From positions 1 to 33,612 of the forward strand of contig JAADFX010000073.1 of the NCBI GenBank assembly GCA_013152685.1: a stretch of DNA of 33,612 bases, written 5' to 3'. The translations under genes were made by a program, and so were the position numbers. The DNA is from Methanobacteriota archaeon. GTDB lineage: Archaea > Hydrothermarchaeota > Hydrothermarchaeia > Hydrothermarchaeales > BMS3B. Positions 9,283 to 26,371 of this stretch are shown piece by piece (the first letter of the stretch is position 1; every line of letters starts with the position of its first letter). The notes under the pieces were generated by a model that had not been told where the DNA came from, made no database searches, and was given only the letters and a program-made list of their open reading frames with translations.

Positions 9283-10629
9283 CTAGGGCGGACCCGGCTC
9301 GTACCAGGGCGGAAGCTCAAACTCCGCCTCCTTCAGGTGGTCAGGCCAGACTATCTTAGGTCTCGGTTCGCCTATCTTGGGGTCGTAGCGCAGCTGCTGC
9401 ATGTACAGCTCGAACTTGCTCTCCCTGTAGTCCTCGCTGAACTTTATCTTCCCGCCCTTCATGGGCTCCACTATCTCGTCCATCTCAAGCCTGTTGAGCG
9501 CCTCCACAATCTTCGCCTTGTCCAGGCTGCCCGCGAGCTCAATCGCCCTTGCGGCGATGTATATGCCCTCGTAGGTGGAGGCACCCATCATGCTCGGGTA
9601 GTCACCGTACTTCTTGTAGAAGGCCTCCTTGAAGCGCTTGGCGCGCTCTCCCACCGGCGTGGGCGGCGTGGTGTAGGGGGAGAACCTGCTCTCCTGTATT
9701 GAGTAGTCGCCCCACTCACCCACATCGCGGTAGTAGTCCGGGTCGTCCGTCGCCTCCACGGCCAGGTAGATGGTGTTCAGCCCAACGTCGCGCCTTCCCT
9801 GCGTTACTAGGGGCACCTGCTCGTTCAGGAAGGTCGCGGGATAGACCACGTCCGGCTTCGCCGCCTTCACCGCCGTGAGTATGGTGCGGAAGTCGCTCTC
9901 GCCGCGCTTGAACTTCTCCTCGGCCACGATTGTTATCTTGAGGTTGTGCTTCTCGATGGCCTTCTTAACGCCCTCGAGCACGCCCTCGCCGTACTTGCCC
10001 TCCTGGTACACCACCGCAAGGCGGAGCTTCCTGTCATCGCTGAAGCCGAACTTCTTGTTAATCGCCGGCCTTATCACCTGGTCCACGAAGAGCATCGTCG
10101 CCTCGGAGTAGTCGTCGGTGGTGGGGCAGTGGTGGAAGAAGGTGGATGTGTCTATGTCAGTCCTCCTGGTGATAAGGGGTGAGCTCGCACCGGTGATTAT
10201 GAAGGGCATCCTGTGCTCAGCCGCCACCACCTGGCCGGCGTAGGTGATGCTGCTTGAAAAGCCTCCCACCAGCACGTGCACCCTGTCCTCGGTAATCAGC
10301 TTTGTTATCGCCTTCACACCGCCCTGAGTGGAGGTCTCCGTATCGCCCCTGTAGAGCTTCAGCGGCAGCTTCCTGTCGTACTCCTTCACGTAGACGCCGC
10401 CCTGAGCGTTTATCTCCTCTATCGCGAGCTCTGCCGCTTCGAGCATGTCGTTGCCGGTGGTGCTCGCAGGCCCGGTTAGCGGCGCCACAAGACCAATGCG
10501 TATCGCCTCGGGTGCTTCGGGGGCAGCCCCGGCTGCCTTCTCAGCCTTGGGCTCCTCTGCCTTTTGGGCGCATCCAGCGATAAGCGCCGGAAGCAGCAGG
10601 AGCAGCAGAATCTTCCATGTTTTTCTCAA
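9283..10629 (-). CDS. LivJ-like periplasmic-binding lipoprotein (branched-chain amino acid/amide ABC type)
   Basis: Signal + lipobox 'ILLLLLLPALIAGCAQK'; 'IRIGLVAPLTGPASTTGNDMLEAAELAIEEINAQGGV'. TTG start at 10629 with GGAGGTG SD preferred to the track ATG at 10665. Confidence 0.88.
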   Translation of the reverse strand: MRKTWKILLLLLLPALIAGCAQKAEEPKAEKAAGAAPEAPEAIRIGLVAPLTGPASTTGNDMLEAAELAIEEINAQGGVYVKEYDRKLPLKLYRGDTETSTQGGVKAITKLITEDRVHVLVGGFSSSITYAGQVVAAEHRMPFIITGASSPLITRRTDIDTSTFFHHCPTTDDYSEATMLFVDQVIRPAINKKFGFSDDRKLRLAVVYQEGKYGEGVLEGVKKAIEKHNLKITIVAEEKFKRGESDFRTILTAVKAAKPDVVYPATFLNEQVPLVTQGRRDVGLNTIYLAVEATDDPDYYRDVGEWGDYSIQESRFSPYTTPPTPVGERAKRFKEAFYKKYGDYPSMMGASTYEGIYIAARAIELAGSLDKAKIVEALNRLEMDEIVEPMKGGKIKFSEDYRESKFELYMQQLRYDPKIGEPRPKIVWPDHLKEAEFELPPWYEPGPP

Positions 10630-10719: not shown

Positions 10720-11580
10720 TCAGCTGCCGCTGACCACCGTCAGGAAGATCTCCTCCAGGCTGGAGGTGTGGTTCTCTATGTCCAGGATCTCGCCCCCGCT
10801 GTGCACCACCTCTCCAGCAATTGCGTTCAGCTCTTCCAGGCTGGTGCAGGTCACCACCCTGCTGCCTGAGCCCCTTGAGCCAGGCGACCTGAACCTGAGG
10901 GTGTACCTGACGCCTCCAAACCTCCGCTTTATCTCCCTCACGCCGCCCTGGGCCACAACCCTTCCCCCCTTGAGTATCACCACCCTGTCGCAGAGCCTCT
11001 CCGCCTGGTAGAGGTTGTGGGTGGTCATCAGTATGGTCTTCCTGCCCCTCAGCCTCCGGATGTACTCCATCAGCTGGGCGGAGGTTATTGGGTCCAGGCC
11101 CGAGGCGGGCTCGTCGTAAACGAGCAGCTCCGGGTCGTTGATGAGGGAGCGGGCGATCATCACCTTGCGCCTCATCCCCTTGGACATCTCGCCCAGCCTG
11201 CGCTCCCTGTGGCTGAGACAGAGCTCGTCCAGCACCCTCTCCGCCCTTCGCCTGGCCTCCTCCCTCTCAACCCCGTAAACATCCGCGAAGAAGTCCAGGT
11301 ACTCGAGGGCGGTCATTTCCTCGTAAACGGGGCTCTCCTCGGGCAGGTAGCCGATGAGCCGCTTTGCCTCCTCCGGGGCATTGCGCATGCAGTAGCCGGC
11401 AACGGAGATTTCCCCCCGGGAGGGCTCCACAAGCCCCACAATCATCTTTATTATTGAGGTCTTTCCGGCTCCGTTGGGGCCCACAACGCCGACTATCTCA
11501 CCCCTCCCCACGCTAAAGGAGACGTCATCAACTGCGAGAAAATCGCCGTACATCTTTGAGAGGTTCCTGACTTCGAGCAC
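10720..11580 (-). CDS. ABC transporter ATP-binding protein (NatA/CcmA type, ABC-2 exporter)
   Basis: Walker A 'GPNGAGKTS', signature 'LGEMSKGMRRKVMIARSLINDPELLVYDEPASGLDP'. GTG start at 11580 (VLEVRNLSKMYGDF) preferred to track ORF start 11787. Confidence 0.9.
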   Translation of the reverse strand: MLEVRNLSKMYGDFLAVDDVSFSVGRGEIVGVVGPNGAGKTSIIKMIVGLVEPSRGEISVAGYCMRNAPEEAKRLIGYLPEESPVYEEMTALEYLDFFADVYGVEREEARRRAERVLDELCLSHRERRLGEMSKGMRRKVMIARSLINDPELLVYDEPASGLDPITSAQLMEYIRRLRGRKTILMTTHNLYQAERLCDRVVILKGGRVVAQGGVREIKRRFGGVRYTLRFRSPGSRGSGSRVVTCTSLEELNAIAGEVVHSGGEILDIENHTSSLEEIFLTVVSGS

Positions 11581-11655
11581 GCAAACCACCGGGTGAGTTT
11601 CTGGCAGCCGGGTACTTAAGGGTTGTTTTTCAGGCATCGAAACAAAAAGGTTAAT

Positions 11656-11672
11656 AGATTTCCCGGAAATCT
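11656..11672. promoter_or_regulatory. hyphenated palindrome AGATTTCC-c-GGAAATCT upstream of the ABC permease-PrsW gene
   Basis: Perfect 8+8 bp inverted repeat ending 8 nt before ATG 11681; no SD between it and the start. Confidence 0.5.
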
Positions 11673-11680
11673 GACACAAA

Positions 11681-13489
11681 ATGAATTTCGGCAACGTGCT
11701 GACTGTTTCAAGGTGGGAGCTCAGGCGCTCAAGGGGGAGGTTCAGCGTTGGCGTGCTGCTTCCCGCCGTCCTGCTGACCGCCTCCATGATGGTGCTGCTG
11801 CTCCTCTACCTGACGTCACCCTCCCCCGCTCCGCTGTACTCGGCAGGCGTTCTTAGGGAGGACAGGGTCCTGCTCCAGGCAATGGAGTACGACGGGAGGT
11901 TCAGGGTGGTCGAGGCCGGAGGCGACGCCAGGGAGATGCTAACTGAGGGCGAGCTGGACCTCCTCCTGACCAGCTCCCCGGAGGGCACCCTGGTTCTGTA
12001 CGCACCCACGGATAAGTCGCTCGCGGCGCTCAGCGCCCTCGAGGAGGCGGTGAAGCTTTACAAGACGCTCACCCTCTTCGCCGTGGAGGGGGAGCAGGTG
12101 AACTACGCCTTCCCTCTCTGGATACAGACCCACCAGCTGAAGCGCAGTGTGGAGTTCCAGTACTTCGCCCTCCCCGGGGATGAGGGAGAGAGCCCCCGCA
12201 GGGAGGGTGGCGGAGGAGGCCCGGGGGTCCTGGTGGAGGAGGAGTCTGCCCCGGAGGCGCTGCCCCGCTCCCAGGTGGCGGAGCTCCTGGAGGACTACCG
12301 GCGGGGTCTGCGCATAGACACCTCGGGGATACGCACAGAGGAGGCCAGGATAACCCTGCCCGCCCTCTTCTCACCTCCCCTGCCCTTCACGTCGGTGCTG
12401 CTCGCCTTTATAATCGCCCTGCCCATATACCTATCCTCCCAGTTCTACGCCACCAGCATGCTGGAGGAGAGGAACCTGCGCAGGGCGGAGGTGCTGCTCG
12501 CCTCGCCGCTCTCCGCCTGGGAGGTGGTGGCCGGCAAGACGCTCGCCCACCTTCTCCTCGCCCTGGGAGGAGTGGCGGCGGTGGCGCTGGTGCTGCGCAG
12601 AAAGCTGGAGGCTGAGGTGCTCCTGGTGTTTCTCCCCGTTGTGCTCCTGTTCCTCTCGGTGTCGCTGCTCGCCTCGGTGCTGAGCAGGAGCTACAGGGAG
12701 AACTCCTTCATTCTCATCTTCACCTCGGTGGCCATGTTCTCCTTCCTCTTCTTCCCGGCAATGTTTGTGAATGTGCACGCGGTGAGCGGCATCTCGCCCG
12801 TCTCCCTGCTGGTTGACGTCTTCGAGGGGGGTGAGATAACACCCGGGGAATACCTGCTCTCCACCATGCCCCTCACCCTCGCCGCAGGGGTGCTGTTTGT
12901 GCTGGCATCGGGAATATTCGCCGGCGAGGTGCACCTGTGCCAGAGGGGCACTGGTGACAGGGTCCTCTACGGGATAAATCTGCTCTGGAGGCGTGCGGGC
13001 GGAACACCGGCGGCGGCGCTCCTCCTGGGAGCCGCTGCCGCAGCTGTAGCCTACCTGCTTGAGCTGGGTTACATAGTTGCCCTCTTCCAGCTGCCCCTCC
13101 CCCAGTCCCTCTACGGGCTGATTGCGCTGGGGGCATACACCGAGGAGCTGCTGAAGGCGCTGGTTGTGGCGGGAATTGTGAGGTACTCCAGGCTCCGGCC
13201 CGGGATGGTGCTCATCGCCGGCGCTGTGTGCGGCGCCGGATTCTTCCTGGGGGAGAAGCTCATTGCCCTGTCCACGCTTGCCCAGCTCTCCGGCTCCCTC
13301 TTCTGGCAGGCGCTCATGGAGGGGAGGGGCCTCCTCCTGGCCCTCCTGCTGCAGGTCTCCCTTACACTCCTCACCGCCGCGGGGCTTGTGCTGAGCGGTG
13401 GCAGGCTGAGGGGCAGGTTCATCCCCGCCCTGGTGCTGGCGGGTGGGCACCTCCTCTACAACCTCCGCCAGGTGGGTGGTGTGCTGTGA
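11681..13489 (+). CDS. ABC-2 (NatB-like) permease fused to a C-terminal PrsW-like intramembrane protease domain
   Basis: N-terminal half: NatB-like TM/soluble/TM with 'SSQFYATSMLEERNLRRAEVLLASPLSAWEVVAGKTLAHLL'. C-terminal half: 'YTEELLKALVVAGIVRYSR' (EExxK), 'GAGFFLGEKL' (FxxxE), 'GGHLLYNLRQ' (HxxxN), all in TM context. Confidence 0.8.
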   Translation: MNFGNVLTVSRWELRRSRGRFSVGVLLPAVLLTASMMVLLLLYLTSPSPAPLYSAGVLREDRVLLQAMEYDGRFRVVEAGGDAREMLTEGELDLLLTSSPEGTLVLYAPTDKSLAALSALEEAVKLYKTLTLFAVEGEQVNYAFPLWIQTHQLKRSVEFQYFALPGDEGESPRREGGGGGPGVLVEEESAPEALPRSQVAELLEDYRRGLRIDTSGIRTEEARITLPALFSPPLPFTSVLLAFIIALPIYLSSQFYATSMLEERNLRRAEVLLASPLSAWEVVAGKTLAHLLLALGGVAAVALVLRRKLEAEVLLVFLPVVLLFLSVSLLASVLSRSYRENSFILIFTSVAMFSFLFFPAMFVNVHAVSGISPVSLLVDVFEGGEITPGEYLLSTMPLTLAAGVLFVLASGIFAGEVHLCQRGTGDRVLYGINLLWRRAGGTPAAALLLGAAAAAVAYLLELGYIVALFQLPLPQSLYGLIALGAYTEELLKALVVAGIVRYSRLRPGMVLIAGAVCGAGFFLGEKLIALSTLAQLSGSLFWQALMEGRGLLLALLLQVSLTLLTAAGLVLSGGRLRGRFIPALVLAGGHLLYNLRQVGGVL

Positions 13490-14571
13490 GGGTGCTTGCC
13501 CTTGCGAAGAAGGAGTTCTCCGCCCTCATGAGGGAGAAGACGCTGCTCCTCACAGTCCTCGTCCAGCTGCTGGTGGCGGCCTTCTCGGCGCTGCTTGCAA
13601 CGGGGCTGGTGAGCTACGCATCCCCGGAGGCGATCACCGCCGTCTCGGGGGAGAGGGTCAGCCTGGCCGTTGTGGGGGCGGACTGGCGCCTCCTCAGCCT
13701 CCTGAGGGAGGAGGGGCGCCTCAACCTGGAGGTGTACGCCGAGTTTTCCGGGGCCGTGGACGACTTCTACTCCCACAGGGTGGACGGCATCCTGGTGGTC
13801 ACCAGGGGGGAGGACAGACTCTCAGACCCCGTGAAGATAGACCTGTACCTGCCGAGCAACGACATCAGGGGGACGCTGGTCGCCGCCTACCTGAAGGAGC
13901 CCCTGGAGAGGTACGAGGAGGTGCTGCGCAGGGAGCGGCTGCACCTTCTTCCGCCGGAGATAAGGGAGGTGCTGGGCTATGAGCTCGCCTTCCCGGACAC
14001 CGACACCCACCCGGGCTACTTTGAGTTCATCTACGGCGTGCTCATCCCCCTGCTCCTGCTGGCGCCCGCCTTCATAGCGGGAGGGCTCGTCATCGACCTC
14101 TTTACGGAGGAAAGGGAGAAGAAGACGCTCCAGCTCCTGATGGCATCCCCCGTGAGTCTGCTTCAGATAGTGAATGCAAAGGTGCTGGTATCCCTGTCGG
14201 TGGTGCCCATCCAGAGCTTCCTGTGGATAAGGCTGCTGGAGTTCAACGGCATAGCTGTTGAGCGGGAGGGGCTTCTGATTCTCCTCGTGAGCGGCGTCGC
14301 CCTGGTGCTGGTGGTTTCCGGGGCGCTCATCGCCGTCTTCACCGGCAGGAGGAGCACGGCACACCTGCTCTACTCCCTCCTGCTGATGAACTTCTTCCTC
14401 GCCGGGATGCGGCTGGGGGAGCTCTCCCCCTTCGGAATGGCCACCTCCCTCGCCACCGGCGGCAGCTACAGCCCCCTCCTCCTTCTCCTGCTGGTTGTGC
14501 TGCCCCTGCCCCTGTACCTGGTGCTGGCGCGAGTGTGCATGAGAGCCAGAAAAGCGGGCGTCGCCGCCTAG
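13486..14571 (+). CDS. ABC-2 type permease (NatB-like)
   Basis: VRVLALAKKEFSALMREKTLLLTVLVQLLVAAFSALLATG...'IDLFTEEREKKTLQLLMASPVSLLQIVNAKVLVSL'. GTG at 13486 overlaps the preceding stop (GTGA); track ORF begins spuriously upstream. Confidence 0.85.
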   Translation: MRVLALAKKEFSALMREKTLLLTVLVQLLVAAFSALLATGLVSYASPEAITAVSGERVSLAVVGADWRLLSLLREEGRLNLEVYAEFSGAVDDFYSHRVDGILVVTRGEDRLSDPVKIDLYLPSNDIRGTLVAAYLKEPLERYEEVLRRERLHLLPPEIREVLGYELAFPDTDTHPGYFEFIYGVLIPLLLLAPAFIAGGLVIDLFTEEREKKTLQLLMASPVSLLQIVNAKVLVSLSVVPIQSFLWIRLLEFNGIAVEREGLLILLVSGVALVLVVSGALIAVFTGRRSTAHLLYSLLLMNFFLAGMRLGELSPFGMATSLATGGSYSPLLLLLLVVLPLPLYLVLARVCMRARKAGVAA

Positions 14572-20515: not shown

Positions 20516-21538
20516 TTAATGATATGTGCTGTGATTTAGCCTGACTCTTACTTCTCTGCCTCTTCTGTGCAGGGTGACAAGCCCCTCCCGACTGAGATTT
20601 CTCAGGTGGTAGGATACAGTGGAAGGAGAAAGGTTAAGGGCTGCGGCTATCTCTTTTGCACTTGCTTCACCGACTTTGCTCAGGTAGCTTAGAATCCTGC
20701 CGGCGGTTTCACCTGGGTAAGTTTCATGGGAGCATTCAGAGTTGGGAAAGTAGACCCTAAACCTCCCGGTCTTCTCCGACCGTATCATCCCGAACCTCTC
20801 TAGCACCTGCAGGTGGTAGTGCAGCGTCCCCCTGTTTATGCTCATCTGCCTCGCCAGTCTCCTGAAGTGAATCCCTGGATTTTGACAGATGAAATTCAGT
20901 ATTCTGACCCTTACCTCAGTTTTAACCTCTCTTATCTTGTATATGAGCAGAAGAATAAAAGATATGCCAATAGCCACCAGATAGTGCCCCAGAAGGGCGA
21001 TAACGTAGGTAAAAACGAGAGCGGTGAATACCAGCGAAGCGCGCCTTTTGCCCATTCTGGCGAGGTGGGCATACAGCACGAAAAAGGCTATCCAGGCGGC
21101 ACCGTAGTCTATCAGGAGCCTCATAAGGAGATGGAGGTATTCGCCTTCAGGCGTTACCACACCAGGGCCTGCGGACTCGTACACTATTACGCCTGCCATC
21201 AGCAGAGCGGCAAAGGGGCTCAGCACGTACTCTGTCCAGTTACCGGTAAAGTAGGCGAGGGTGAGGAGCGCCATGCCGTTAATGGCGAGAGGTGTGGAAG
21301 CAAGAGCCACGCGGAACACTGCATCTTTAAATGGCATTCTGATTCCGCTTTTTTCATGAAAGTATGCGTAAATTGCGGCGAGAGCCAGGAAGGTTAAGAA
21401 AGGAGCAAGGAAGGCAGCTGCTGACTGCATGCTAAGCTTTGCAATACCCTCTCTTTCAAAGGCGCGGGCATATAAAATCCAGTTGAGCGCAGAGATGCTT
21501 CCCAGCACGACAATTGGGTAGAGGATTTTTAGCCTCAT
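20516..21538 (-). CDS. multi-TM membrane protein with two C-terminal winged-HTH (ArsR/MarR-like) domains
   Basis: About six hydrophobic segments, then 'RVRILNFICQNPGIHFRRLARQMSINRGTLHYHLQVLERFGMIRSEKTGRFRVYFP' and 'AGRILSYLSKVGEASAKEIAAALNLSPSTVSYHLRNLSREGLVTLHRRGREVRVRL'. Confidence 0.85.
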   Translation of the reverse strand: MRLKILYPIVVLGSISALNWILYARAFEREGIAKLSMQSAAAFLAPFLTFLALAAIYAYFHEKSGIRMPFKDAVFRVALASTPLAINGMALLTLAYFTGNWTEYVLSPFAALLMAGVIVYESAGPGVVTPEGEYLHLLMRLLIDYGAAWIAFFVLYAHLARMGKRRASLVFTALVFTYVIALLGHYLVAIGISFILLLIYKIREVKTEVRVRILNFICQNPGIHFRRLARQMSINRGTLHYHLQVLERFGMIRSEKTGRFRVYFPNSECSHETYPGETAGRILSYLSKVGEASAKEIAAALNLSPSTVSYHLRNLSREGLVTLHRRGREVRVRLNHSTYH

Positions 21539-21570: not shown

Positions 21571-22677
21571 TTATCTCCCTGGCAGTATCGGCCTCTGGAC
21601 AATCTTCGCACCGCGGGGTGCGTCGGGATAGTACTTCACGTCAACCAGCGCTATCCTCGTGTTCTCCTGGAGTTTTTGAAGCTCCCTGAGCCTGCCTTCA
21701 ACCTCAACCCCGTATATTTCGGCAGCACCTTCACTCAGGGCAAGTATCATCATTTCCTGCCTGCGGAGCACCCTGAGTAGCGCGGCGCTTTCATCGCGCT
21801 TGGCCTTATCCAGAGCTTCTTCAGTTCGTGTCATGTCAGCCTTCAGGTCTCCTATTTTTCTGTCCAGCGACTCTGTAACAGAGCCCTGAATGTCGAATCC
21901 GCCTCCGAATCCATAACCTCGTGCCTCGAACCACACCGCCTTTACTTCAACCCTGTAGTCCCTGAAAAGGCTGTCCACATCGCCGGTGCTGGCGAAACTG
22001 TCCAGTGAAACCACCGCATGCATTATCCCTTCTGGCATCTCCTCAGCAAGCTTCCTGAGCACCTTCTTCCTCTGGGATATGTATCTCTCCACCTCATCAC
22101 CGCTTTCCGGACGCAACATCACCATCAAGCGGTCCCCACTGGTTGAGCTGCTGGAGGCGAAGTTCCAGGTGCCGGAAGAGGGAGCTGTGAAGTCTCTTAT
22201 GGGGTAGTAATCCACAGGCCAGTTCGCTCCAGTGCCTGGAAGGTCCCATTTGAGCTCAGCCTCCAGGATTGTCCTGCTGCTCACGACAGAGCTGTCCTGG
22301 TCACTTAAGTCGATGTACATCCAGTACTCCTGCCCTGGCACAGTGGCTTCGGCGTCGTCGCTTCCTACTACGAATTCATCCCAGGTGTTGGCGGAGTTCT
22401 GGGCGTCATCTTCTAAATCGAGGTACTTCTGCGGCAGGTTGCTGCTCCAGTAGCCAGCGTATTTTGCAAAGCCGGTGTTTTCAACCCTGAACTCGTGTTC
22501 ATACGCCTCAGGATACCACTCGTTAAATCCCTGCTCATTCCACACAAAATCCGAATATGCATAGCTCTTGCTTATGTAGTAGTAACCGCTGTCGGGCACA
22601 TAGTCCGGGTGCGATGTGGCAGCTACTGCACCAGCTAGCAAAAGCAGCAATACCGGCACAGTGCAATTCCTTTTCAA
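21571..22677 (-). CDS. secreted hypothetical protein with C-terminal coiled-coil-like region
   Basis: TTG start 22677 (LKRNCTVPVLLLLLAGAVAATSHP signal peptide) with SD GGAGGTGA; preceded by leader cassette A. Helical region 'SVTESLDRKIGDLKADMTRTEEALDKAKRDESAALLRVLRRQ'. Confidence 0.75.
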   Translation of the reverse strand: MKRNCTVPVLLLLLAGAVAATSHPDYVPDSGYYYISKSYAYSDFVWNEQGFNEWYPEAYEHEFRVENTGFAKYAGYWSSNLPQKYLDLEDDAQNSANTWDEFVVGSDDAEATVPGQEYWMYIDLSDQDSSVVSSRTILEAELKWDLPGTGANWPVDYYPIRDFTAPSSGTWNFASSSSTSGDRLMVMLRPESGDEVERYISQRKKVLRKLAEEMPEGIMHAVVSLDSFASTGDVDSLFRDYRVEVKAVWFEARGYGFGGGFDIQGSVTESLDRKIGDLKADMTRTEEALDKAKRDESAALLRVLRRQEMMILALSEGAAEIYGVEVEGRLRELQKLQENTRIALVDVKYYPDAPRGAKIVQRPILPGR

Positions 22678-22685
22678 ACAATTCA

Positions 22686-22793
22686 CCTCCCTTTTGATTC
22701 TTCGAAGGGAGGCCTCCCCACTCATTTTCTTTAAAAACCTCTGCTATAAATAATTTCTGTGACAAACTTCAAAATGTTCGTTTGTGGTGAACA
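22686..22793 (-). promoter_or_regulatory. promoter/leader cassette copy A
   Basis: Dyad TGTTC (22775-22779) N9 GAACA (22789-22793); core TATAAATAATTTCTGTGACAAACTTCAAAATGTTC (22745-22779); palindrome GGGAGGCCTCCC (22707-22718); SD-sequestering arms CCTCCCTT (22686-22693)/AAGGGAGG (22705-22712), + strand notation. Confidence 0.85.
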
Positions 22794-22826
22794 CATACAA
22801 TAAAAAGCAGTTTTTCTGGTTTAGGC

Positions 22827-23069
22827 TTACAATGCCAAAATTTTATCGATCAGTCTGAAGGCAAATTTAAGCAGGAGGAATACAATTGCCGCAGCTACAA
22901 CCATATCCAGCAAAAACAGTAGGTTTCCTAGAGGTGGACTTATCCCGTAGTCCGGATCCAAAAATGGACACTCAAAGCATATAAAGAGAGATAGAAAAGC
23001 CCAGAGTATTGCTCCCACACCGATTAGAAATACCTTGATTATATCCCCGAGTCCTTTTCTCACGCTCAT
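22827..23069 (-). CDS. small two-TM hypothetical membrane protein (80 aa)
   Basis: MSVRKGLGDIIKVFLIGVGAILWAFLSLFICFECPFLDPDYGISPPLGNLLFLLDMVVAAAIVFLLLKFAF; GGAG SD about 8 nt upstream. Confidence 0.65.
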   Translation of the reverse strand: MSVRKGLGDIIKVFLIGVGAILWAFLSLFICFECPFLDPDYGISPPLGNLLFLLDMVVAAAIVFLLLKFAFRLIDKILAL

Positions 23070-23115
23070 GACAGGAACTCCATTTAAATTAACAAAAATA
23101 ATAAAAAAGAACGAA

Positions 23116-23619
23116 CTATCGCGGGGTACCTATCCACTCTATTGTTTTTCTCGGATATCCCGTACCCTTTGATACTACGAACTTCTGGGTGTTGTATACG
23201 TTGAATCCATGGAATCCACCGCAATGTAAATTTGCCAAGTGATCGCCGTGGGCCCCGTGCTTTATGTAGTACCATCCCTTGCCCGTCCATGTGCCCAGAG
23301 AGCCGTAGTCCACATGCACGCTTCCGTCTTTACAGGCTGAAAACTGCCATATCATGGTGTCGGAGTACCAGTCACCGTCTATTAAGGAAAACCCACTGAC
23401 GAAAACTTTTGATTCGCACGACCTCTTATATCCGCTTTCCTGAACCCATACGAGGGGGTCATACGCCTTCTTGTCAAAACATCTCTCTTCGTCCTCCACC
23501 GCGTACTGAATGTCCGGACACCGGCTGGTGTAGGAGCCCCGCCAGGAAGAGTAGTCATGAAAGATACCTGCGGCAGGCATGAAGTAGTACCACCCGTAGT
23601 GGGTACCTTCGCCCTCCAT
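23116..23619 (-). CDS. Trp/Tyr/Cys-rich hypothetical protein lacking a visible signal peptide (possibly 5'-truncated)
   Basis: MEGEGTHYGWYYFMPAAGIFHDYSSWRGSYTSRCPDIQ...; extracytoplasmic-like composition, but an in-frame TGA lies 3 codons upstream of the ATG. Confidence 0.55.
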   Translation of the reverse strand: MEGEGTHYGWYYFMPAAGIFHDYSSWRGSYTSRCPDIQYAVEDEERCFDKKAYDPLVWVQESGYKRSCESKVFVSGFSLIDGDWYSDTMIWQFSACKDGSVHVDYGSLGTWTGKGWYYIKHGAHGDHLANLHCGGFHGFNVYNTQKFVVSKGTGYPRKTIEWIGTPR

Positions 23620-23626
23620 CTGTTCT

Positions 23627-23797
23627 TCATAGTATTACTCCTCCATATCTTATGGTGTTGTGGAGGTCTTCTGCCTTCTCCTTCTCCCCGGCATTCAGCA
23701 GCTCCAGCACCAGCTGTAGCCCAGAAATCTGAGCCTCAAGGATTTCTGCCCTTGAGGCCTTTCTCTTTTCCGGCTTCTTTTGCTTAGCTCCAGCCAT
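23627..23797 (-). CDS. 56-aa charged small protein downstream of leader cassette B
   Basis: MAGAKQKKPEKRKASRAEILEAQISGLQLVLELLNAGEKEKAEDLHNTIRYGGVIL; SD GGAGGTGA + 5 nt + ATG, same spacing as copies A and C. Track ORF (start 23839) reads through the leader. Confidence 0.65.
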   Translation of the reverse strand: MAGAKQKKPEKRKASRAEILEAQISGLQLVLELLNAGEKEKAEDLHNTIRYGGVIL

Positions 23798-23805
23798 CCA
23801 CTTCA

Positions 23806-23910
23806 CCTCCTCTTTTTCTTCGAGGAGGCGCCTCCCCAAGCTATTAAAATGCTATTTCTGCCATAAATAATTTCTGTGACAAACTTCAAAATGTTCACTG
23901 GTGGTGAACA
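23806..23910 (-). promoter_or_regulatory. promoter/leader cassette copy B
   Basis: Dyad TGTTC (23892-23896) N9 GAACA (23906-23910); core CATAAATAATTTCTGTGACAAACTTCAAAATGTTC (23862-23896); palindrome GGAGGCGCCTCC (23824-23835); arms CCTCCTC (23806-23812)/GAGGAGG (23822-23828). Confidence 0.85.
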
Positions 23911-23929
23911 TATAATTCCTTAAAGTTTT

Positions 23930-24181
23930 TTACTCCTCTTCTAAACCCTCCCTAAATTTTTCACTCAGAAGTATAAGAACCCCGTAGGAGAATATCAAAA
24001 CTCCTGCGATGCTCAGGCTTGTGCTGCCATCTGCAAACTGAGGAACAAAGGTTAGAATTGTGCCAATAACAAGAAGATCCAGCACCCTTGCCCTCTTATC
24101 CTTTTTTATCTGAGATGCACTTCTAATCCAGAGGATAATTCCTATAACCGCAATGAGGGCAAACAGCGCCTTTGTTAACAC
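23930..24181 (-). CDS. small multi-TM hypothetical membrane protein (83 aa)
   Basis: GTG start; (M)LTKALFALIAVIGIILWIRSASQIKKDKRARVLDLLVIGTILTFVPQFADGSTSLSIAGVLIFSYGVLILL; GGAGAT SD upstream. Confidence 0.65.
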   Translation of the reverse strand: MLTKALFALIAVIGIILWIRSASQIKKDKRARVLDLLVIGTILTFVPQFADGSTSLSIAGVLIFSYGVLILLSEKFREGLEEE

Positions 24182-24200
24182 CGGACTATCTCCAGAAAGA

Positions 24201-24311
24201 TTAAGCTTGCCTATGTTTGAATTCTTTCACAGAAATATACATCAGGGTCACCGATCCGGCTGCAATCACCAACCCGGCTGCATAGCCCGCGCCTCCATCC
24301 CCGATGCTCAT
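24201..24311 (-). CDS. possible 36-aa single-TM peptide
   Basis: MSIGDGGAGYAAGLVIAAGSVTLMYISVKEFKHRQA read directly from the reverse strand; not in the ORF track; no strong SD. Confidence 0.3.
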   Translation of the reverse strand: MSIGDGGAGYAAGLVIAAGSVTLMYISVKEFKHRQA

Positions 24312-24376
24312 ATTTTTCCCGGTTATTACCGCATAGAGTCATGAGTTAAATTACCTCTTACAATCCCACTCAATTA

Positions 24377-24907
24377 TCACTCTACAATCACTTTCACTTT
24401 AGCGGATTCCACCCTGCCCACCCAGTAGGGCCTGGTTATCCTCTCATACTCCGGTTTTCCTGTAAAATAAACTGCCTTCAAGACATACTCGCCTTTCTTT
24501 AGAGTCCAGCAGTTTTTCCAGGCATCTGCCTTAAGAGAGAATCTAAGAGATTCCCCGGGCTTAAGTTCTATCAAGTTTTTATTTGTCATCTGCACTCTTT
24601 GAATAACAGGACAGCGATGTTTTGAAACTGGCGTGCCATTCGGATAGTAGAAGGCTATGTCATAGTCCATAAGCCACTCTGGCTTCCAGACATTAATAGA
24701 GTTTTTCCCGTTGTTCCTCAATATAAACTCAATATCAAAGGCTTCTCCTTCCTTGATTATATTCTCCTCCGGCACCACAGTAAGAGTGAGATTTCCATAT
24801 TGAGGTTTTGCCAGAAATTTATATGGTATCGGAGTGTTGAATAACCACTGAGCAGCTACTAACAGTATAAGAACTGTTGAAATTAAAATAAGATAAACTT
24901 GTCTCAT
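24377..24907 (-). CDS. membrane-anchored extracytoplasmic hypothetical protein (Ig/BsuPI-like beta domain)
   Basis: N-terminal TM 'VYLILISTVLILLVAAQWLF' then 'LTVVPEENIIKEGEAFDIEFILRNNGKNSINVW..LIELKPGESLRFSLKADAW..KKGEYVLKAVYF'. Confidence 0.65.
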   Translation of the reverse strand: MRQVYLILISTVLILLVAAQWLFNTPIPYKFLAKPQYGNLTLTVVPEENIIKEGEAFDIEFILRNNGKNSINVWKPEWLMDYDIAFYYPNGTPVSKHRCPVIQRVQMTNKNLIELKPGESLRFSLKADAWKNCWTLKKGEYVLKAVYFTGKPEYERITRPYWVGRVESAKVKVIVE

Positions 24908-24933
24908 TATTTAACCGCTCCATGCATGACTAC

Positions 24934-24962
24934 TAAAAATAAATAAAAAACAAAAAATAATT
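24934..24962 (-). terminator. T-rich terminator region downstream of the metalloprotease gene
   Basis: Minus strand AAATTATTTTTTGTTTTTTATTTATTTTT immediately after the stop at 24968. Confidence 0.5.
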
Positions 24963-24967
24963 TAAGA

Positions 24968-26254
24968 TTATCTGTACCCTGCGACGGTGGTTTTTGTCTC
25001 GGAAATTCTCCTGATGTTGTCGTGAGTGGAGTCTCCGTGATTGTTTCTGTCTGAGAACTCAAGCTGCATTCCACCGATCCAGCCTGTGCCCATGAAGGGT
25101 GTCCATAGTGCTGTGTATCTGTCCCATATGATGTACTTCCACTGGTATGCCCTTGCATAATTTGGGTTTGTGTTGTCCTGATGTCCTGCATCAAAGTTGT
25201 GCCCTGTTTCATGGGCGGTTAGAATACACCTATCCTTAAAACTTGCAGTGTAGCTGGTTCCGGGTTCTGCTACCATCTGGGCAGTTGCAAATCCACACCA
25301 TGCGCTCCCACCACAGTACCCATAGGAACATCCGCCAGCTTGTCCGTCGAAGTTTTTGCCCGAGAAGAGAAAAGCTAAATCGCTTTTAGTGCTATCTCTG
25401 TCGCTGCTAGCTCTGCCAAAGAAGCTTCCAAGTACGCTTCCGCAATCCCCATTGGGTATGTTGGAATAATATCTATAACTCCTAATGGAGAGCTGCACTC
25501 CTGCAGGAGCATATGCATCGTTTATGCTGGCTATCATGCTGGCGATCTCTGCTGTTGGATTAGAAAACTCATTTTTAAACTCCGTGTCATATCCTGCTAG
25601 CAAATCTACGGTAGTTGTTGATAAAGTCCCTGAAAGTGTATTTTCTACTGTCGAGTCCACTGTTTTTAGGTTAATGTGGCTTATCACATCACCATCCAGC
25701 GGCATAGGGGTGGCGTTTGTCTTGTCTCTGAGCATTTCTGAGCTATAGATAATGTGAACTATCCTCCCATTGTACTTCTTGTTTGTCTGGTCTATCACAT
25801 AATATTTGTCTCCAAGTTCTATCACACCGATGACTACATCACTGCTCACCGTGATGATAACTCTGCTGTTTTTAATTCCTCTGACTTTGCCTTTGTAGGT
25901 GTACAGAGGCGGCGCTTCCTCTATGAATTTACCGCTCTCGTTTTCAGTGATTATCACGGCATTCGCTGACTGAACTTCCACAGGCATAAGCTCCATCTCA
26001 AATTTTCTTCCAAACAGTTCAAGACTCACAACTCCTGAATCCGCTGCTTTCTTAAAAGCCATAGGGTCTATAATAACCGTTTTGAATTCTTTTAGGAAAT
26101 TGCTGCCCAGAATTTCTGATTTGTTATATGGTATCTCCTTGAAGAAACTGTAACTCTGGTTTGTGCTACTTGCTAAGCCAGCAAACACACTCCCAGCCAC
26201 CAGCGCCACAACAACCAGCGCCGGAATTCCTATACTAAACCAACTTCCTTTCAA
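24968..26254 (-). CDS. secreted ADAM/reprolysin-like (M12-type) metzincin protease with propeptide-like N-terminal region
   Basis: Signal peptide 'IPALVVVALVAGSVFAG'; zinc motif 'TAHETGHNFDAGH' (HExxHxxGxxH); downstream 'PFMGTG' Met-turn candidate; prodomain-like 'YTYKGKVRGIKNSRVIITVSSDVVIGVIELGDKYYVID'. TTG start 26254 at conserved spacing from the SD; track start 26263 is inside the SD. Confidence 0.88.
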   Translation of the reverse strand: MKGSWFSIGIPALVVVALVAGSVFAGLASSTNQSYSFFKEIPYNKSEILGSNFLKEFKTVIIDPMAFKKAADSGVVSLELFGRKFEMELMPVEVQSANAVIITENESGKFIEEAPPLYTYKGKVRGIKNSRVIITVSSDVVIGVIELGDKYYVIDQTNKKYNGRIVHIIYSSEMLRDKTNATPMPLDGDVISHINLKTVDSTVENTLSGTLSTTTVDLLAGYDTEFKNEFSNPTAEIASMIASINDAYAPAGVQLSIRSYRYYSNIPNGDCGSVLGSFFGRASSDRDSTKSDLAFLFSGKNFDGQAGGCSYGYCGGSAWCGFATAQMVAEPGTSYTASFKDRCILTAHETGHNFDAGHQDNTNPNYARAYQWKYIIWDRYTALWTPFMGTGWIGGMQLEFSDRNNHGDSTHDNIRRISETKTTVAGYR

Positions 26255-26262
26255 TTTCTTCA

Positions 26263-26371
26263 CCTCCTCTTTTTGCTTTTTTGAGGAGGCGCCCCCTCTT
26301 TTTGTTGTTTAGAAGCTTTTCCCATAAATAATTTCTGTGACAAAATTCAAAATGTTCGTCATAGTTGAACA
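26263..26371 (-). promoter_or_regulatory. promoter/leader cassette copy C
   Basis: Dyad TGTTC (26353-26357) N9 GAACA (26367-26371); core CATAAATAATTTCTGTGACAAAATTCAAAATGTTC (26323-26357); arms CCTCCTC (26263-26269)/GAGGAGG (26283-26289); upper stem GAGGAGGC/GCCCCCTC (26283-26298), pairing in RNA with one G-U. Confidence 0.85.

Follow-up and report, generated by a model that had tools for sequence, protein, structure and literature searches.

The window analyzed here is a stretch of 33,612 nucleotides from an archaeal draft genome of 1.8 Mb (G000), in which three near-identical promoter-leader cassettes precede minus-strand genes, several of them coding for exported proteins. The cassettes had been proposed in a first-pass annotation, and the proposal is borne out by a 67-nt repeat family with exactly three copies in the window (22727-22793, 23844-23910 and 26305-26371) and by a 34-nt core that matches the window three times, compared with 0.00 matches in 100 dinucleotide shuffles. 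Chance is ruled out as an explanation of the three cassettes.

Promoters and gene units of the three cassettes

On the minus strand each copy has the same order of parts: a palindrome TGTTC-N9-GAACA, the core TTTGAA(G/T)TTTGTCACAGAAATTATTTAT(A/G)G, a GC-rich leader, and the Shine-Dalgarno (SD) sequence GGAGGTGA followed by N5 and the start codon. The constant SD-to-start spacing claimed earlier is found in the sequence, with 5 nt in all three cassettes and starts TTG, ATG and TTG at 22677, 23797 and 26254. The core is an archaeal promoter with a transcription factor B recognition element (BRE) and a TATA box; TTATTTAT(A/G) following CAGAAA reads as the TATA box with its BRE, and a conserved element (consensus TnGAnGATTGTCACAGAAATTATTTATA) lies directly upstream. 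Given this assignment, transcription would be expected to start near 22722, 23839 and 26300.

The promoter part of cassette 1 (22740-22793, minus strand) consists of the palindrome TGTTCACCACAAACGAACA at 22775-22793 and the element with BRE/TATA, including a 20-mer at 22746-22765. In cassette 2 (23856-23910, minus strand) the palindrome TGTTCACCACCAGTGAACA occupies 23892-23910 and the 20-mer 23863-23882, and in cassette 3 (26317-26371, minus strand) the palindrome TGTTCAACTATGACGAACA occupies 26353-26371 and the 20-mer 26324-26343, each again with the element and BRE/TATA. All three were delimited by the repeat, the core match and a sequence-only motif model built from 21 aligned promoters, whose training sites match by construction while other sites do not; the model match of cassette 1 at 22740-22785 (E = 6.5e-13) belonged to the training set. 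The palindrome, present in all three cassettes and unmentioned in the first-pass annotation, was seen in the window's own genus only, and could serve as a second operator or else extend the site of the same protein.

The cassettes do stand before three genes, as annotated, but each leads a multi-gene unit rather than a single gene (all minus strand). Cassette 1 is followed by the gene for an exported coiled-coil protein with a TTG start (21571-22677; open reading frame (ORF) and signal-peptide comparison) and then by that for the candidate regulator discussed below (20516-21538), which probably belongs to the same unit because it begins 32 nt after the preceding gene. The unit of cassette 2 starts with a 56-aa charged protein without a signal peptide (23627-23797; ORF, Pfam scan), continues with a 167-aa protein outside named families (23116-23619; ORF, Pfam and NCBIfam scans) and ends with an 80-aa hydrophobic protein (22827-23069; ORF). 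Cassette 3 precedes a secreted metzincin protease, M12/reprolysin-like and with an HExxH motif (24968-26254; Pfam Reprolysin_5, E = 5e-14), a 176-aa exported, membrane-anchored protein (24377-24907) and an 83-aa hydrophobic protein (23930-24181), the last two identified by ORF and homology and kept in the congener G009. That congener repeats the arrangement of three cassettes, from the metzincin unit through a middle unit to the exported protein with the regulator, but carries a different secreted passenger in the middle. An NCBIfam scan of the passengers named none of them. On the far side of the window, 10720-14571 carries an ABC ATPase gene and two large ABC-2-like permease genes.

The element in other genomes and the export regulon

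Scanning the genome and its relatives with the profile, as the first-pass annotation had proposed, turned up further copies within this genome, among congeners and in another phylum. The idea of a local regulon thus holds as to the three local copies, but not as to their confinement there. A fourth copy in the window's genome, on contig C96, differs by 2 mismatches in the 20-mer and lies ahead of an exported-protein gene; this gene and the one after a Methanoperedens site (L031) look homologous when their translations are compared by eye. Within the 23 genomes sampled from the window's own small phylum, strong sites (model match E<1e-3) occur in only four (G000, G008, G009 and G020), with copies in two sister species and another order. 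The Methanoperedens phylum has a model match at E<=0.01 in 41 of the 397 genomes scanned, some with 10-15 copies, many of these inside one island (e.g., G161:C1:77,001-97,000). Behind the island sites lie, among others, genes for ABC-2 permeases and an ABC ATPase as well as lipoprotein-like genes.

Nine loci of the genome collection carry the exact 21-mer: six from Candidatus (Ca.) Methanoperedens, two from other archaea and one on a Chryseobacterium contig, which is probably a chance match. Seven of the eight archaeal loci encode a very large secreted protein with its start about 80-115 nt downstream; the remaining one is cut at the locus end. Twenty-one promoters from several lineages align to the consensus ACnTGTnGAnGATTGTCACAGAAATTATTTATAGnAGnA, and an upstream extension, TnGAnGATTG, is conserved across phyla past the BRE/TATA. 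Viral spread of the motif was rejected, as the exact 20-mer had no match in IMG/VR contigs. Two contigs (G355:C390 and C335, locus L118) of a Methanoperedens-phylum genome encode proteins 74-87% identical to those of the window island, which probably reflects bin contamination rather than transfer.

The first-pass annotation had also read the cassettes as duplicated regulatory DNA placing mostly exported functions under one switch, and had anticipated more copies before other exported proteins. Both ideas gain support from the profile matches and from the genes behind them. Among 52 distinct strong sites in the loci examined, 50 had a scorable downstream ORF; a hydrophobic N-terminal segment is encoded by 42 of these (84%), compared with 38% of the 465 background ORFs taken from the same loci (Fisher P = 1.7e-12). 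The test is conservative because the background ORFs were drawn from the same loci, and liberal because related genomes are not independent; some of the exceptions look like ORFs picked in the wrong frame. The export theme holds in general and fails for the first gene of cassette 2, with its 56-aa product that has no signal peptide. The regulon itself is well supported.

Alternatively, the similarity might reflect no more than strong generic BRE/TATA promoters combined with local duplication, and no common regulator at all: as a generic core promoter for archaea CAGAAATTATTTATA would do well, and some matches within 2 mismatches head housekeeping genes such as those for the thermosome (L035) and FtsZ (L049). 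We consider this explanation unlikely, given that conservation extends about 12 nt upstream of the BRE, that strong model matches are confined to 4 of the 23 own-phylum genomes although all of these have promoters, and that the export bias and the regulator co-location described below are present.

It is still less probable, to the point of being quite improbable, that a small mobile or repeat element, spreading with a promoter aboard, accounts for the cassettes. The presence of three copies in 3.7 kb, the exchange of passengers behind common leaders, G009 contigs that end inside cassettes, and the same transposase-like ORF near both motif copies of G020 (L061 477-878 and L062 8752-9153) would fit such an element. 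However, the metzincin cassette sits at the same place in the congener, the cassette borders match functional parts, and the motif persists across phyla while its flanks differ; inspection of the cassette borders by eye showed no terminal repeats or target duplications, though no dedicated search or strain comparison was made. A single recent transposed element is unlikely in particular because the metzincin cassette is kept in the congener and the element is found in more than one phylum.

A membrane-anchored candidate regulator

The protein encoded by 20516-21538 (340 aa) is predicted to join about six membrane helices to two C-terminal winged-helix domains, an assignment based on Pfam, an AlphaFold model, a transmembrane scan and homologs in islands. 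Pfam gave HTH_24, HTH_5 and HTH_HVO_0163_N, and the transmembrane scan six hydrophobic segments. The AlphaFold model has a helical N-terminus followed by two winged helices (mean predicted local distance difference test score (pLDDT) 68, with the winged-helix part mostly at 83-91), and a Foldseek search of this model against the PDB returned generic winged-helix matches only. Homologs are found in G009:C15 (49% identity), and in Methanoperedens G027:C24 (37%), there in the unit behind a site; seven islands in further genomes also contain homologs (31-37%).

Members of this family lie near the sites far more often than expected. In a test on 20 genomes with 71 family members, 18 members were within 10 kb of a site, with 2.08 expected and a maximum of 11 in 20,000 simulations in which contig breaks were ignored, and 15 of the 20 genomes had at least one member near a site against 1.9 expected. 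The count treats related genomes as separate cases, and since the island genomes are related the 18 events are not independent. The members inspected in islands are membrane-anchored. The regulator gene and a conserved site are divergently arranged in five islands; directly behind that site lies the gene for a metzincin homolog in one (G161, of the other phylum) and that for a different exported protein in another (G136). A Methanoperedens locus (L055 1-508, G026:C104) likewise has a winged-helix regulator gene divergent from a motif heading an exported protein.

Several observations weigh against this protein as the controller. The family is multi-copy in several genomes. In the own phylum the membrane form was found in G000 and G009 only, and the motif-bearing G008 (a fragmented draft) and G020 yielded only soluble double winged-helix relatives of 164-168 aa. 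An initially perfect phyletic match between family and motif (E<=1e-12, own phylum) was dropped for this reason, and is not counted as evidence for the membrane form. The C96 site, moreover, comes without palindrome and without hairpin leader.

The soluble relatives raise the alternative that the site is read by another factor, either the soluble double winged-helix protein or a variant of TFB or TBP, while the membrane protein would be a member of the regulon or would act at the palindrome. Each of the own phylum's four motif-bearing genomes encodes a soluble protein of this type (G000:C41:4360-4737, G008:C83, G009:C37 and G020:C5), and the motif overlaps the BRE, an element that a TFB would read. 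On the other hand, the soluble protein's gene is distant from the sites, G015 has a fragment of the soluble type yet no strong motif, and in other lineages it is family members that lie near the sites, in membrane-anchored form where inspected in islands. We regard this alternative as a serious but rather unlikely one.

Membrane-anchored regulators with an envelope regulon are known in kind. ArnR and ArnR1 of Sulfolobus acidocaldarius are membrane-bound one-component helix-turn-helix (HTH) activators of surface-structure genes with sites upstream of the core promoter, and as such a precedent for the candidate (PMC6396743). The domain order is reversed, however: ArnR has one N-terminal HTH, a HAMP/sensor domain and two C-terminal transmembrane helices, whereas the candidate has about six N-terminal transmembrane helices and two C-terminal winged helices. 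The ArnR boxes, TCGAC-N5-GTCGA, are located at -43 to -84, and the cassette element abuts the BRE. In this last respect the closer likeness is to EarA, the euryarchaeal archaellum regulator, a winged-helix activator with sites immediately upstream of the BRE (PMC5512572). EarA, in contrast, is soluble and recognizes four 6-bp repeats at one operon, whereas the candidate is a predicted membrane protein and the cassette element, single and longer, heads many genes for exported proteins. In combining a predicted DNA-binding domain with at least one transmembrane region the protein falls, by prediction, within the transmembrane transcription regulators, of which an archaeal genome is reported to have four on average, with enrichment in Methanomicrobia (PMC10269533); that survey concerns proteins, and we found no description of a DNA site or regulon of the cassette type. 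CsmR, a 13-kDa winged-helix protein, is of a different type and was rejected as a match. The literature search, with most subscription papers outside its reach, gave no description of the motif, and within that scope this regulator-site pairing and the cassette form appear to be undescribed.

A predicted sequestering leader and a possibly exchangeable signal peptide

The leaders of the three cassettes (all minus strand), delimited by folding and covariation, share three elements. In cassette 1 (22678-22722) a GGGGAGG arm is followed by the anti-SD CCTCCCTT (22705-22712) and the SD stem AAGGGAGG (22686-22693); in cassette 2 (23798-23839) the arm is again GGGGAGG, with the anti-SD GCCTCCTC at 23822-23829 and the SD stem GAGGAGG at 23806-23812; in cassette 3 (26255-26300) the arm GAGGGGGC (26291-26298) precedes the anti-SD GCCTCCTC (26283-26290) and the SD stem GAGGAGG (26263-26269). 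The GGAGGC hairpin of the first-pass annotation is foldable, but it is the weaker of two mutually exclusive folds, the stronger of which pairs CCTCC(C/T).. with the SD. The predictions thus contain two competing structures, one of them hiding the SD, as in an SD-sequestration switch.

In five of the six genus leaders the SD is predicted to be paired (P about 1.0), and folds with an open SD are 6.4-7.3 kcal/mol worse. When the arms are fixed in the alignment, 92.5% of cells pair and two pairs have changed on both sides, albeit among five distinct rows only; the pairing and covariation scores were reached by 6 of 500 shuffles. Four of the six leaders are more stable than their shuffles (z -3.2 to -3.6), whereas cassette 1 (-1.57) and G008 (-0.55) are not distinct. 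The pattern CCTCCTC-N-GAGGAGGTGA occurs in the genus on the cassettes, at the G007 gene and at one unrelated site in G000:C70. A simple RNA thermometer was set aside as unlikely because in five of the six leaders the SD stem is predicted to stay closed across 20-75°C and mostly closed even at 85°C (pairing >=0.88).

Ten leaders of the other phylum have a GGAGG arm, a CCTCC stretch and the SD in the same order, and a switch architecture common to both phyla is possible on these models. Counting against a sequestering leader, the SD of the G008 leader is predicted to be only partly paired, and among the other phylum's leaders the arm usually prevails, with the SD largely free in 8 of 10. The likeness to bacterial SD-sequestering leaders (RNA thermometers, riboswitch platforms) lies in an SD enclosed in a stem and an upstream arm that competes and could release it; here, no known sensor domain is evident and the leader is reused ahead of unrelated genes. 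In a set of loci (L057, L058, L116, L129, L140, L141, L144 and L145) the leaders measure about 220 nt and contain a conserved CCCGGAGGC ... GCCTCCGGG hairpin with the SD shortly after; these leaders are also reused ahead of different exported proteins.

Conservation behind some promoters reaches into the coding region. Several leaders in the genus are about 80% alike and their signal-peptide coding regions 64-69%, with mature parts at background; for cassette 3 and G009a the values are 0.82 for the leader, 0.69 for the signal peptide and 0.23 for the mature part. Cassettes 1 and 2 do not have this common signal peptide. In Methanoperedens the mean identity likewise falls from 63% (promoter-leader) through 48% (signal peptide) to 25% (mature part), although quicker evolution of exposed domains could account for part of the drop. 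G006 (99% complete) is without regulator, strong motif and leader. In G007 (82% complete) family member and strong motif are both missing, but the leader hairpin and signal peptide remain; the gene that they head shares 88% identity with a motif-bearing G008 gene over the early mature coding region. As far as this incomplete genome can tell, this fits promoter element and leader as separate modules. In G386 (L144, site at 10272, minus strand) the conserved leader and signal peptide run into a stop after about 35 codons, which looks like an empty cassette that has lost its passenger.

Taken together, we lean towards the cassettes being promoter-leader modules, partly with a signal peptide, of a regulon of exported and envelope proteins that is controlled by the membrane-anchored double winged-helix protein and carries a translational lock. 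The protein encoded by 20516-21538 within the cassette 1 unit would be the most likely controller, sensing an envelope or extracellular condition. We infer that it binds the dedicated DNA site set directly against the BRE/TATA box and, from just upstream of the BRE, aids recruitment of TBP and TFB. By analogy, activation is slightly preferred over repression because a site directly upstream of the BRE fits archaeal activators (PMC5512572). In the window's genus the mRNA would begin near the GGGGAGG arm, followed by the anti-SD stretch and then the SD. As the default fold would hide the SD, translation would depend on the arm prevailing, whether in the course of transcription or with a helper factor. 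A coding region arriving behind a copy of the module could then become a new exported protein of the regulon.

Few archaeal regulons, to our knowledge, have both a DNA site and a candidate regulator to define them. The cross-phylum promoter element, the exported proteins behind it and the membrane-anchored double winged-helix protein offer a testable regulator-site pair for archaeal envelope biology, with a reach that includes Ca. Methanoperedens and its giant surface proteins, whose genes stand behind the site. Beyond the first-pass annotation, the analysis adds the candidate regulator, the predicted SD-hiding leader, the signal-peptide module and the spread across phyla. The leader suggests archaeal translational control through SD sequestration, and the common leader-signal peptide segments suggest a route by which new exoproteins enter the regulon. 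More tentatively, and with less confidence than in the regulon model as a whole, at least two archaeal phyla may use an interchangeable export cassette of regulated promoter, translationally locked leader and signal peptide, behind which exoprotein coding regions are swapped. If so, one membrane-anchored regulator would govern a shifting repertoire of surface and secreted proteins, at the level of both transcription and translation.

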